Virus record (IMG/VR): IMGVR_UViG_3300048590_000401
Span: 1-42,379 of that record
Source of the DNA: a virus
DNA: 42,379 bases
Strand: one strand, 5' to 3'
The translations under genes were made by a program, and so were the position numbers. The notes below the pieces were generated by a model. That model was not told where the DNA came from, searched no databases, and was given only the letters and a program-made list of their open reading frames with translations. Of the stretch, positions 2,435 to 41,531 are shown in pieces; within the stretch, counting starts at the first letter, position 1, and every line of letters starts with the position of its first letter.

Positions 2435-2448
2435 TGCAATCAATTGCA
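2435..2448 (+). repeat. 14-bp dispersed near-palindrome, copy 1
   Basis: TGCAATCAATTGCA; arms TGCAAT/ATTGCA around CA, extended here to ATGCAAT/ATTGCAT. It lies between the phosphoesterase stop codon and the early-type promoter, ending 12 bases before the TTGACA box. Confidence 0.9.
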
Positions 2449-2460
2449 TAAAGAAAGTGC

Positions 2461-2489
2461 TTGACAAACCGCGCGGGACGCGGGATAAT
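2461..2489 (+). promoter_or_regulatory. Early-type sigma70 promoter 2
   Basis: TTGACA (2461-2466), 17-bp spacer AACCGCGCGGGACGCGG, GATAAT (2484-2489). A 46-bp stretch around it is repeated with one mismatch at 4324-4370. The leader contains a GCCGG/CCGGC hairpin (about 2498-2512) and ends in the conserved AAGGGAGTG ribosome site before the ATG at 2531. Confidence 0.85.
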
Positions 2490-2530
2490 TGAATCATGCC
2501 GGAAGTACCGGCCTCAAGGGAGTGAGCCAG

Positions 2531-2803
2531 ATGAAAACCGATTACTCGCAGGGTGACAAGGAAGTCACCTATGCCGTGGAGTTCCTGCAATTCGGGTACT
2601 TCCAGCCGGGTCCCACAGGTCCGGTGGGCGAGTGGTGGTCGGTCTACAACCGCGAGAAGGACCCGACCGCCGTGGTGGACGATCCGGCGGTGTTCACTTC
2701 GCTCGCCGAGGCCTGCGCCTTCGAGGACTCCCTCACCGATCCCATCCTCAACACTCGCGTGGTTCGTGTGACCCGCGAGGCCATCAATCGGGAGGTCGCA
2801 TGA
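2531..2803 (+). CDS. Hypothetical protein, 90 aa
   Basis: I chose the ATG five to seven bases downstream of the conserved AAGGGAGTG leader. An earlier in-frame ATG at 2489 overlaps the promoter -10 box and cannot be translated from it. The product is acidic and aromatic (AVEFLQFGYFQPGPTGPVGEWWSVY), with a helical middle (FTSLAEACAFEDSL). It has the look of small phage early proteins, but no family is recognised. Its stop overlaps the ATG of the following gene (ATGA), so the two are probably translated together. Confidence 0.65.
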   Translation: MKTDYSQGDKEVTYAVEFLQFGYFQPGPTGPVGEWWSVYNREKDPTAVVDDPAVFTSLAEACAFEDSLTDPILNTRVVRVTREAINREVA

Positions 2804-3129
2804 ACCACTATGGCGTAAACGAAACGAACCCAGTCACCCTGGGCTACCATGACGAAGAGGTTGTGGGGTTTGTGGATTGGGCTGACAAACGGCTGGCCAA
2901 GATCGAGCGTCTGCGGTTGGTCTCGGACCCCGGCTTCCCGTTCTGGGATGTCAGCTACTGCTACGGACGCCTCAAGACCGGGGGGAAGGTGTCCGTGCAG
3001 GTCCCGTTTTCTGGGCCGGCGATGCTTCCGAAGCGGGCATTGCAGAAGACAATCCTCTTCTGGGCCAAGAAGGAAGGGGTATACGCCAAGGGCCTCGGCA
3101 TCTTCAACGCCATCAGCACGCTGAACTAA
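2800..3129 (+). CDS. Hypothetical protein, 109 aa
   Basis: Starts at an ATG overlapping the preceding TGA, with GGGAGG at ideal distance. The 109-residue product has an acidic first half (YHDEEVVGFVDWADKRLAKIERL) and a basic C-terminal part (PKRALQKTILFWAKKEGVYAKGLG). The segment FPFWDVSYCYGRLKTGGKVSVQVPF suggests a small alpha/beta domain. No catalytic motif or known family is visible. It sits in the promoter 2 operon of small early-type genes. Confidence 0.65.
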   Translation: MNHYGVNETNPVTLGYHDEEVVGFVDWADKRLAKIERLRLVSDPGFPFWDVSYCYGRLKTGGKVSVQVPFSGPAMLPKRALQKTILFWAKKEGVYAKGLGIFNAISTLN

Positions 3130-3130
3130 C

Positions 3131-39341: not shown

Positions 39342-40606
39342 TGCGCCTGCTGCTCTCCGAAATCCTGCCCTTGCGGTCTACCAAGGACCTCGGCGATTAC
39401 GCTGTGGACCGGGTACTGCCGTGGCGCTTCGGCGATCTCCGGGAGAACTGGTTTGAGTTGATCCGACTGGAAGACGACGTGTGGTTCGTCGCCGATCATG
39501 TGATGACCGTTACCGGTGTTCGAGTCGGCAAGGAGAGTGCTACTGGCTGGCAACGAGAGCTTCGTTCCAACGACGTAGGCAAGACCTGGACAGTGCTGCG
39601 CATGGCCGCCCCGGTGCCAGAGGGCGAGGCTGTGAGCGCCGTCGGCACGGGTTACCTCAATCCCGTCAGCGGGGCGCTGGTGGAGAATCCGGCGGACGTA
39701 GTGGAAGTCATCGAGGGCATGGCAGGGCGCACGGGCGACTGGAGTCAGCTTCGCGCAGAGTGCTCGCGGGACGGCATCACTGTTGCGGGTTCCTTGAACA
39801 AACTGGAGACCGTCCAGACATGGATTCATGACATCACCTCCTCCGTCGGGGCGATTTGGTCTCTGGATGTCAAGCGCTTGTACCCCGTGGAGACGCCGGA
39901 CGAGTTGGAGTGGCCGTTGGCGTCTTACCAAGTCCACCAGCTTACGGTCACCGCCGATGCTCAAGAAACGGCGGATGTACTCCGCGTGGGCTACGACTGG
40001 AGCGACGCTGACCAACGCGCCCAGCATTCGATCACCTTGAAGGCCAGCCCCGTTCGTTTTGACGGGAAGATCATGGACTTGGAGTTGCGATGGCTCCGTA
40101 AAGCCAGGGCAGCCGAGTTGGTGGGCAGCCGGCTGATCAAGCGATTGGCGTCTCGTCGGTATCAGGTGACGTTCACCGCCGACGAGACCCGCATTCGGCC
40201 GGGCCACTGGGTGCAATTGATTGCATGCCCGATGTGGCCTTTCTCCGAAGGCGATCCGCATGTCATGGTGACTTCGGTCACCGTGAGTCCCAACAGCAAA
40301 GCCATCGACATTGTGGGCGAGGTTGTCTACAGCGCCCCTACCGCCGAGGTAACGGACTTCTCGCTGGGGCTGGAGTCCACCACCGAAGGTCTAGTCGAGG
40401 TGGCGTTTAAGAACGGGGTTGCGACCTTCACCGTCCTCGATGACAACAGTGATCCTCTGGTTGGCGCTCGTTGTGCTCTGGACAGTGGTATGGTCAAAGA
40501 GACCAACAATCAGGGTAAGGTGAGTTTTACCACCGCACGAGGCAGCCACACTCTGATCATCGAGCATCCGGAGTTCAACTCTCAGACGCTATTGGTGAAG
40601 TTGTGA
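39341..40606 (+). CDS. Tail hub-like protein with C-terminal Ig-like domain, 421 aa
   Basis: ATG overlaps the preceding TAA. Residues 1-340 show the alternating beta strands and helices of hub proteins (RFGDLRENWFELIRLEDDVWFVADHVM, then TVQTWIHDITSSVGAIWSLDVKRLYPV, and RIRPGHWVQLIA with a strand typical of the outer beta-barrel). The last 75 residues (ATFTVLDDNSDPLVGARCALDSG, then GKVSFTTARGSHTLIIEHPEFNS) are a carboxypeptidase-regulatory/Ig-like domain that often binds sugars. Repeat copy 9 is inside, in reverse orientation. Likely part of the baseplate that anchors the fibre genes downstream. Confidence 0.65.
   Translation: MRLLLSEILPLRSTKDLGDYAVDRVLPWRFGDLRENWFELIRLEDDVWFVADHVMTVTGVRVGKESATGWQRELRSNDVGKTWTVLRMAAPVPEGEAVSAVGTGYLNPVSGALVENPADVVEVIEGMAGRTGDWSQLRAECSRDGITVAGSLNKLETVQTWIHDITSSVGAIWSLDVKRLYPVETPDELEWPLASYQVHQLTVTADAQETADVLRVGYDWSDADQRAQHSITLKASPVRFDGKIMDLELRWLRKARAAELVGSRLIKRLASRRYQVTFTADETRIRPGHWVQLIACPMWPFSEGDPHVMVTSVTVSPNSKAIDIVGEVVYSAPTAEVTDFSLGLESTTEGLVEVAFKNGVATFTVLDDNSDPLVGARCALDSGMVKETNNQGKVSFTTARGSHTLIIEHPEFNSQTLLVKL
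40212..40225 (-). repeat. 14-bp dispersed near-palindrome, copy 9 (inverted)
   Basis: Reads TGCAATTGATTGCA on the + strand, the reverse complement of all other copies. It lies inside the hub-like gene, starting on the second base of a codon and reading V-Q-L-I-A. Confidence 0.9.
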
Positions 40607-41478
40607 GCGTCCTGAAGCTGAGCCTCAGCCGGAAAGCCCTGATTCCCCAGGATATCGACCTTGGGGTGAAGATGACGCGCAAGACCGATCCAAAGGTCTT
40701 GGAGGCCTCCGATTGTTGTCTACCGTGTTTCAGCGGTTGGGTGGCTTCTGCTCTGGAGGAATTGATATCCGCTGCCACCCAAACAGACGGGACCCTGAGC
40801 TACACCTTTCCCGACGCAGGGACCTTCACCTTTACCGGGACTTTCACTGCGTTAGGGGATTTTTGCGAGTACACGCCGGAACTGCATTACAGCCATGCTT
40901 ATGGTGAAGGAGTTGACCCACCGGCGGTCACTTTGGACGTTAGCGGGACCAACCCTTCAATTACCATCAGTGGCGACGAGACCCACATTGGCGGTACGAC
41001 GACGGTTTGGCTCACATGGACGCACCCAGACGACAGCGAGTGTGTCTTCATTGTTGGTCCCCGCATTCTGATTTCCTCGGCCGCCGTGGCGGTTCCCCTT
41101 CTTTGGGCGATGGCGGAACAAGCCTTCCTAGAAACTGAGTTCGAGGTCTACAACAACTCCCTCTCCTGTGAAGTGTCTTTTAGCGGGGTTTGTTTGGTCC
41201 TCGTCTCCCCAACCGACGCCGACATTGATTACGCCAACTTCTCTTGGGGTATAGCGACTTACGACACGCTTGTGTTCGATGTCTCAGAAACTACAGACGG
41301 GAGTGGACGCCCCGTGCTCTGCATTTCCTTGTTGCCCGCTCCGGGATCAGACCCCGGGGGGCTGTGTGAGTACATTGGTAGCACCTTTGTAGCGAACCCA
41401 ACTTACGATTTCGATGGTGCTGGTGCTAACCTCCCAGAGTCCACCATCCTGTCAGTCAACATCGAAATCACCGCCTAG
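40603..41478 (+). CDS. Tail-associated protein, 291 aa, cysteine-rich beta protein
   Basis: GTG start overlaps the previous TGA. Contains eight or more cysteines, for example SDCCLPCFSGW near residue 40, and long beta segments (GTLSYTFPDAGTFTFTGTFTAL, PSITISGDETHIGGTTTVWLTW). The Cys distribution suggests metal binding or disulfides outside the cell. No family is recognised; the location between hub and fibre genes points to a tail-tip or adaptor component. Confidence 0.6.
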   Translation: MSVLKLSLSRKALIPQDIDLGVKMTRKTDPKVLEASDCCLPCFSGWVASALEELISAATQTDGTLSYTFPDAGTFTFTGTFTALGDFCEYTPELHYSHAYGEGVDPPAVTLDVSGTNPSITISGDETHIGGTTTVWLTWTHPDDSECVFIVGPRILISSAAVAVPLLWAMAEQAFLETEFEVYNNSLSCEVSFSGVCLVLVSPTDADIDYANFSWGIATYDTLVFDVSETTDGSGRPVLCISLLPAPGSDPGGLCEYIGSTFVANPTYDFDGAGANLPESTILSVNIEITA

Positions 41479-41501
41479 TAGAACAGCACGACCGGCTCTA
41501 G

Positions 41502-41507
41502 TAGAAT
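41502..41507 (+). promoter_or_regulatory. Late promoter candidate, TAGAAT, with repeat copy 10 as operator-like element
   Basis: CTCTAGTAGAATCAGG lies 35 bases before the ATG at 41542. The 14-bp repeat begins 11 bases after the box, the same distance as at 22999-23004. A direct repeat CTAGTAGAA occurs 23 bases upstream (41476-41484). Confidence 0.45.
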
Positions 41508-41517
41508 CAGGCGGACT

Positions 41518-41531
41518 TGCAATCAATTGCA
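41518..41531 (+). repeat. 14-bp dispersed near-palindrome, copy 10
   Basis: TGCAATCAATTGCA between the late promoter candidate and the GAGG ribosome site of the next gene; the layout matches copy 6. Confidence 0.9.

Follow-up and report, generated by a model that had tools for sequence, protein, structure and literature searches.

The 42,379-nucleotide stretch of viral DNA analysed here (positions 1 to 42,379 of IMG/VR record IMGVR_UViG_3300048590_000401; this whole stretch is hereafter called the window) encodes portal, head, protease, capsid and neck proteins, a DNA polymerase, ThyX and a PPDK-like protein, together with tail genes presumed from their position, and carries ten copies of a 14-bp near-palindromic site, TGCAATCAATTGCA. 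Among the matches listed, its portal shares 41% identity with the portal of Stenotrophomonas phage DLP5 and about 32–40% with those of Rhodobacter phage RcZahn, Rhizobium phage RHph_Y1_11 and Vibrio phages, with records of 79–102 kb. No match was obtained by megablast of positions 1–25000 against phages, and no end repeats were found in the window record. We take the window to be a fragment of a phage of some 80–100 kb, related to siphophages of Stenotrophomonas (DLP5, DLP3), Rhodobacter, Rhizobium and Vibrio; judging from these relatives, the complete phage presumably has more copies of the site.

Results

Ten exact copies of an inverted repeat

A sequence-only reading of the window had reported ten perfect copies of the site, and all ten were present with zero mismatches (Table 1), compared with an expectation of 0.01 and a maximum of 1 in 100 dinucleotide shuffles. 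Allowing up to three mismatches added one place only, at 9911. Nine copies lie on the plus strand and one (40212) on the minus strand of a sequence with a G+C content of 59%. As A precedes seven of the ten copies and T follows seven of the ten, the full element is close to ATGCAAT-CA-ATTGCAT, that is, 7-bp arms around an asymmetric 2-bp centre. Half of the copies fall between called genes (2435, 5342, 23015, 26718 and 41518) and half within genes (9387, 12828, 19574, 35514 and 40212), where all three reading frames are used, so that the copies are not a protein repeat.

Site arrays and their lineage-specific versions in related phages

With at most one mismatch, the window site was found in 24 of 39 related records, whereas the same pattern read backwards, used as a control, gave no match in 38 of them and one match in the remaining one. 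De novo searches showed that the 6-2-6 inverted repeat is also present in some of the other records, in versions of their own. In 13 near-complete genomes, picked by capsid or portal likeness, a weight matrix detected 26–72 sites each, versus 0–2 in one simulated sequence each; the excess, for which a check in relatives had been proposed by the sequence-only reading, thus held beyond the window. The version TGCAATCAATTGCA is shared by the window, DLP5 and G010, and TGCAATTAACTGCA by G003, G015 and G016; others are GGCAATCAATTGCC in G019, TGCAATCGATTGCA in G021, TGCAATTAATTGCA in V-YDF132, TGCACTCAAGTGCA in G001, TGATCTTAAGATCA in G011, and TGCAACAAATTGCA and TGCAACATATTGCA in two Rhizobium phages. 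Pattern and de novo searches revealed no dispersed array in G023, G024 and G025. High-scoring C+G-rich words in G023 (48.1) and G025 (40.5), as well as the word GGCCCCGAAGGGCC (score 17.7) in Streptomyces phage Jay2Jay, were judged to be coding repeats or hairpins and not this site.

With strict sites placed on a circle, 11 of 12 genomes showed a more regular spacing than random sets: in these 11, the coefficient of variation of the gaps was 0.38–0.66 compared with about 0.95 for random placement, and at most 2.4% of 4000 random sets were as even. Gaps shorter than 300 bp were scarce (none in DLP5 versus 3.5 expected; 3 in G019 versus 11.1 expected). By mechanical open reading frame (ORF) calls, which cover one strand only in the unannotated genomes, 324 of 453 sites in 12 genomes lie within called genes; this tally leaves out G011, where gp067 (see below) is split over two ORFs. 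The orientation of exact copies was 9:1 in the window, 18:8 in DLP5, 33:17 in G010 and 22:19 in G019, ratios that coding frames may bias. In large siphophages of many bacteria, one palindromic site recurs dozens of times at even intervals.

At eight aligned gene positions a site is common to at least three genomes, each genome having it in its own version, and the window has three of the eight (9387, 12828 and 19574). The shared position in the PPDK gene reads TGCAATCAATTGCA in the window, TGCAATTGATTGCA in DLP5, GGCAATTGATTGCC in G019 and TGCAGTTAATTGCA in G003, G015 and G016, and the one in the SF2 helicase gene occurs in six site versions. Common descent could preserve a position but could not alter all copies of one genome together, as a site-specific protein with drifting specificity would. 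Lineage-own versions at shared positions would therefore be the mark of a changing trans-acting recogniser.

The gp067 family co-occurs with the sites

Fourteen gene families were present in all 13 near-complete site-bearing genomes. Thirteen of these could be assigned, at least at the domain or family level, to portal, protease, capsid, AAA ATPase, DnaB, primase, SSB-like protein (from a weak match), SF2 helicase, RecA, exonuclease, RuvC, TerL and DNA polymerase. The fourteenth is that of DLP5 gp067, a protein of 267 residues in PHROG 17202 with no assigned function and no Pfam family, encoded after RuvC in the replication-recombination block.

Relatives of gp067 were found in 49 phage records, one Rhizobium plasmid record (p7) and 82 IMG/VR stretches, 80 of which were kept. 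At 61 of these 80 loci a dispersed site of this kind was present (score of at least 11; hand count of rows), including loci whose gp067 relative is only 28–34% identical and whose sites are TGCAAGCGCTTGCA-like words. All five records chosen for gp067 (L338C, RcTiptonus, HJ05, SIO-2 and plasmid p7) also had sites. FBPa45, picked by its portal as an intended gp067-negative control, turned out to have sites, and gp067 was then detected there by profile. Conversely, neither sites nor gp067 were found in G024 and Jay2Jay (sites in the latter being sought in 41 kb only), and G023 and G025 showed a weak match to the C-terminal part of gp067 only. The Rhizobium bangladeshense p7 record (L250, NZ_CP071625.1) is a circular plasmid with a phage-like replication-recombination block, gp067 and sites, and looks like a phage-plasmid. 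A scan of bacterial genomes with patterns from 10 close sequences matched 21 stretches, none of them a relative, an absence that covers close relatives only. The virion mass-spectrometry table for DLP3 lists 21 proteins, among them gp61 (the counterpart of DLP5 066) and not gp62 (067), and so gives no sign that gp067 is packaged.

A MerR-like regulator encoded between SF2 helicase and RecA (DLP5 43342–43743) was rejected as a candidate binder, as it was not found in site-bearing RcZahn, both Rhizobium phages, G011 and G021. We consider gp067 probably the protein that binds the sites.

A site in front of the gp067 gene

A site in the version of the respective lineage lies between −160 and −41 of the gp067 start at 32 of 54 non-redundant loci, compared with 15% for the next best bin and 4% for the median bin. 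These 54 were taken from the 80 loci after dropping those without a de novo site, those more than 80% identical to another and five discarded manually, their best repeat being of another kind (L186, L206, L218, L239 and L243); L240 was kept despite a wrong consensus word and counts as a miss. In the five further records, the site was found upstream of gp067 in four, with one mismatch in HJ05. Among the near-complete genomes, a site stands in the 200 bp ahead of gp067 in 10 of 12, the top share of all orthogroups, followed by gp108 (3/5), gp053 (6/10) and the protease (6/12). Four loci (L205, L210, L215 and L233) have a tandem pair of sites, 23–24 bp apart, ahead of gp067.

In 28 of 40 loci, selected for having a site upstream of gp067, a TTGACA-like box (at least 5 of 6 bases) begins 5–9 bp after that site, mostly at a gap of 8 bp (13 loci) or 7 bp (7 loci) and often as TTGACAAAC. 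The word TTGACAAA with a −10 box recurs in the window (8), G016 (14), V-YDF132 (15) and G019 (15), and is a phage promoter type, a minority of which carry a site upstream. A strict pairing rule joined 19 of the 75 TTGACAAA promoters to a site, and 19 of the 508 sites to a promoter. Promoter regulation was rejected as the main role of the sites because only a minority of them pair with promoters. Other recurrent words lie mostly just 5′ of gene starts in DLP5 (CAATGGAGTG, 15 copies; L064/L065) and RcZahn (CCAAGGAGGG, 13 copies; L068–L073), and a start-associated word in G011 (L120–L124) is TTAAGGAGTG, with 26 copies.

Predicted fold of gp067

An AlphaFold2 model of gp067 based on 63 sequences (mean predicted local distance difference test, pLDDT, of 84.6) begins with an N-terminus of low confidence, continues with a helical core (approximately residues 33–163, most of it above pLDDT 90) and ends, after a linker, in a helical C-terminal part. 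Structural comparison of the core by VIA-align ranked the Spo0J–parS complex first (4umk, Z 10.3 over 111 residues), and also matched ParB (6t1f, Z 9.2), Noc–NBS (6y93, Z 9.1) and KorB–operator (1r71, Z 7.0); 16 of the top 22 rows were ParB, Spo0J, Noc, KorB or SopB (Z 4.6–10.3). Against viral models, weak matches ranking behind the strong ones included DUF3102 and Spo0J-like phage proteins. DLP5 gp067 had zero Pfam matches, ParB_N was not among the 25 of 44 Pfam families listed for the 63 members, and no CTPase domain was seen either in the Pfam matches listed or in the model, which comprises only the helical core and C-terminal part. Matches of the gp067 sequence to PDB entries (Rab11, E about 6e-4, and others) were judged spurious. 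The C-terminal domain modelled alone (pLDDT 83) gave a best VIA Z of 4.1 and no PDB match with E below 3; our guess is that it may be a ribbon-helix-helix domain. The model supports, without proving, a ParB-type helix-turn-helix (HTH) core without a CTPase domain.

Positions and surroundings of the site copies

The positions of the window copies, and of the ParB_N protein discussed below, are collected in Table 1.

Table 1. Coordinates of the site copies and associated features, in the window unless a locus is named.
Feature	Coordinates	Strand	Context
Site copy 1	2435..2448	+	Intergenic, 1 base past the stop of a metallophosphoesterase-like gene (sub-cut-off Pfam match)
Sigma70-like promoter, TTGACA-17-GATAAT	2461..2489	+	12 bp downstream of site copy 1; consensus match only
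Site copy 2	5342..5355	+	Immediately past the stop of a DUF4241 gene
Site copy 3	9387..9400	+	Within PPDK/PEP-utiliser gene; aligned codon shared with DLP5, G003, G010, G015, G016 and G019
Site copy 4	12828..12841	+	Within DSP-PTPase-like gene; aligned position also occupied in DLP5 and five others
Site copy 5	19574..19587	+	Within head-morphogenesis gene; 7 of 14 genomes having the gene carry a copy at the aligned codon (near-duplicates merged)
Site copy 6	23015..23028	+	Intergenic, nested in a longer GGGACC...GGTCCC inverted repeat (by eye)
Site copy 7	26718..26731	+	Intergenic, past the major capsid gene and a terminator-like hairpin (by eye)
Site copy 8	35514..35527	+	Within a large gene, presumed tail gene (position only)
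Site copy 9	40212..40225	-	Within a presumed tail gene (position only), reverse orientation
Site copy 10	41518..41531	+	Intergenic
ParB_N protein	L065:21945-22799; L067:20018-20785		Annotated ParBc or nucleoid occlusion protein

In the region 26660–26731, downstream of the capsid gene, site copy 7 comes after a terminator-like hairpin with a T-run (by eye), and the same order is found in DLP5 at 6375. The PPDK/PEP-utiliser gene (8251–9939) has two DSP-PTPase-like genes nearby (10952–11410 and 12528–13250); dikinase and tyrosine phosphatase genes are also close together in DLP5 and V-YDF132. The gene at 22073–22933, which had no PHROG match, may encode a protein resembling the arginase/histone-deacetylase family.

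Discussion

The excess of sites, their lineage-specific variants, even spacing and shared positions, the joint presence of sites and gp067, and the site preceding the gp067 gene, are established computationally. The proposal of the sequence-only reading that these are dispersed sites of a dimeric DNA-binding phage protein is supported by the lineage-specific variants, the shared positions and an operator-like copy before the gene of the likely binder, binding itself being predicted. The sites are most likely docking points for a phage protein resembling the DNA-binding part of chromosome-partition proteins.

In our preferred explanation, to which we give a probability of roughly 0.6, each copy would be a binding site of a protein of the DLP5 gp067 family, probably a dimer, in which a ParB/Noc/KorB-type HTH core without a CTPase domain would be followed by a linker and a small helical C-terminal domain. 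Such a protein would act as a CTPase-less ParB, loading at some 20–70 sites spread evenly over a genome of about 100 kb and coating or bridging neighbouring DNA, so that the phage DNA would be organised or positioned as a whole, both while it replicates and, where the phage is temperate, in its plasmid-prophage state. The site directly upstream of the −35 box of gp067's own promoter would tune the amount of gp067, and a minority of sites may do likewise at other phage promoters. Dimer binding, genome-wide even loading and autoregulation form the reading that covers most of the observations. Even spacing and mostly genic sites point to a whole-genome task. RcZahn, reported as virulent (PMC8601537), has both sites and gp067, which argues against a purely lysogenic task; a maintenance role is possible, given that DLP5 is reported to have been isolated as a phagemid (PMC7326821) and that p7 is a circular plasmid record. 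We see an even chance that genome organisation or segregation, and not gene silencing, is the main purpose of the sites.

Several observations weigh against this explanation. As regards the sites themselves, the spacing in G016 was no more even than random; most sites are not position-shared, and the eight positions common to at least three genomes were counted without a chance expectation. In addition, 129 of 453 sites are intergenic although noncoding DNA makes up 4–7% of the genomes, an over-representation that favours a regulatory share, as does the finding of a promoter-like match near 43 of 130 intergenic sites versus 201 of 2600 control positions in 13 genomes (of the 43, 15 have the −35 box 8 bp after the site and 8 have it inside the site). 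As regards the link with gp067, 19 of the 80 loci yielded no such site at the score threshold used, 22 of the 54 had no recognised site between −160 and −41, and SIO-2 had none at that upstream position. Moreover, gp067 was unmatched in the window and in the site-bearing fragments G004, G008, G012, G014, G018, G020 and G026 (23–57 kb), and its link with these therefore runs through relatives. Another small family without assigned function, gp061 (DLP5 43746–44117), was found in 12 of the 13 near-complete genomes and is a possible alternative binder. As regards the fold, the remaining 6 of the top 22 structural matches were the RuBisCO factor Raf1, with Z up to 9.2, a value that helical folds can attain without kinship; Foldseek against PDB gave nothing significant (best E 0.9); and mutual information between gp067 residues and the motif revealed no clear specificity residues, some half-site rows being shifted or having a wrong consensus.

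The chief alternative is silencing in the manner of KorB or of stoperators. Here, gp067 or another repressor would shut promoters and stray transcription, in lysogeny or at an early–late switch, and any organisation of the genome would be a by-product. The intergenic enrichment and the promoter-like matches, including the one at gp067 itself, speak for this account, as does the lysogeny described for DLP5 and DLP3 (PMC7326821). KorB has a similar ParB-type HTH and several sites on a mobile replicon, RK2; however, it is described as a CTP clamp with 12 sites and a partner, KorA (PMC11790492), whereas gp067 genomes have 26–72 mostly genic sites and no ParB_N was seen in gp067. Similarly, the mycobacteriophages L5 and Bxb1 are described as having 24–34 repressor sites per genome whose sequence varies by lineage with the repressor, but these stoperators are given as 13 bp long, mainly intergenic and in one orientation (PMC3029335). 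The phage sites analysed here are 14-bp inverted repeats, evenly spaced, mostly within genes (324/453) and mixed in orientation, and in the last two respects, the orientation less clearly, they differ from the L5-type analogue suggested by the sequence-only reading. These same two features speak against silencing in general, together with the few promoters and sites that the strict rule pairs, the presence of sites and gp067 in RcZahn, and the even spacing, which silencing does not predict. We regard a global silencer as unlikely.

The sites might instead be a packaging, recombination or replication signal read by another protein of the replication-recombination block, such as RecA, RuvC, exonuclease, the helicases, gp061 or TerL; packaging or nucleoid roles are possible. 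In keeping with this, gp067 is encoded inside that block, most of whose genes are likewise present in all 13 genomes (gp061 in 12). However, an upstream site was found at gp067 in 10 of 12 genomes compared with 1 of 11 for gp061, 1 of 12 each for RecA, RuvC and exonuclease, and 1 of 13 for TerL, and symmetric sites with coordinated change suit a dimeric HTH protein better, which makes such a signal improbable.

We think it still less probable that the sites are canonical ParABS centromeres, that is, parS sites of the ParB_N protein encoded upstream of terL and segregating a plasmid prophage. This protein lies two genes upstream of terL in DLP5 (DLP05_107) and V-YDF132, ParB_N matches were found in 10 of the 13 near-complete genomes (in RcZahn the model had no match, but BLAST finds a relative at the start of the record), and the phagemid isolation of DLP5 would fit. 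However, its presence fails to track the sites, and it was rejected as the binder: ParB_N went undetected in G009 (26 sites) and G019 (72 sites), and matched in the site-less G024 (over the cut-off), G023 and G025 (below it). No ParA was over the cut-off in 24 records with PF01656 (two weak sub-cut-off matches) or in 18 records with a second model, PF13614, and no tyrosine integrase was found in 18 records. The sequence-only reading had also named ParB-type partition sites as an analogue; the predicted DNA-binding fold of gp067 agrees with it, and the failure to find a ParA, or a ParB CTPase domain in gp067, does not. Finally, chance, codon usage or a mobile repeat are refuted by the expectation of 0.01 copies, the nearly empty reversed-pattern control, flanks that look unrelated by eye and the use of all three frames.

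For the preferred reading of gp067 as a CTPase-less ParB-like protein, the closest description is that of ParT from the Streptomyces coelicolor plasmid SCP2, a ParB-like protein without CTPase, with a flexible N-terminus, an HTH middle domain that matches ParB 6T1F, a linker and a C-terminal domain (PMC12260392). The predicted layout of gp067 resembles that of ParT, which we compared by its description only; the match of the core fold is moderate and the C-terminal part is unmatched. ParT, whose homologues are described as mostly from Actinomycetota and Cyanobacteriota, acts together with ParA and an 18-bp parS that apparently lies inside the ParT gene itself (PMC12260392), whereas in the gp067 phages we found no ParA, and there are tens of evenly spaced sites genome-wide, one of them ahead of the gp067 gene. 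Noc and its NBS sites in Bacillus subtilis also combine a ParB-type HTH with genome-scattered sites, but Noc is described as a membrane-binding CTPase (PMC8429893), and no CTPase domain was seen in gp067. Thus, ParB-type HTH domains and dispersed sites are already known, and of a CTPase-less, ParA-less and evenly spread phage version we found no description. Text searches for phage ParB-like dispersed sites returned none, and four of the site words did not occur, in a searched literature outside which most subscription papers lie.

Should gp067 prove to be the binder, ParB-like loading independent of CTP would gain another natural example, here in phages for which our searches found no ParA, and the lineage versions of the site would form a ready-made set for studying specificity. 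The way in which phages such as DLP5, or the Rhizobium element p7, keep or organise their DNA would also receive a testable explanation, neither ParA nor tyrosine integrase having been found in them. More tentatively, with the balance tipped slightly to the other side, a ParA-less, CTPase-less ParB-like protein may load at tens of evenly spaced sites and turn the whole viral chromosome into a single nucleoprotein body, in effect a genome-wide phage 'centromere' that serves both virulent and plasmid-prophage lifestyles. If true, this would be a widespread and previously undescribed phage system for handling a whole genome.

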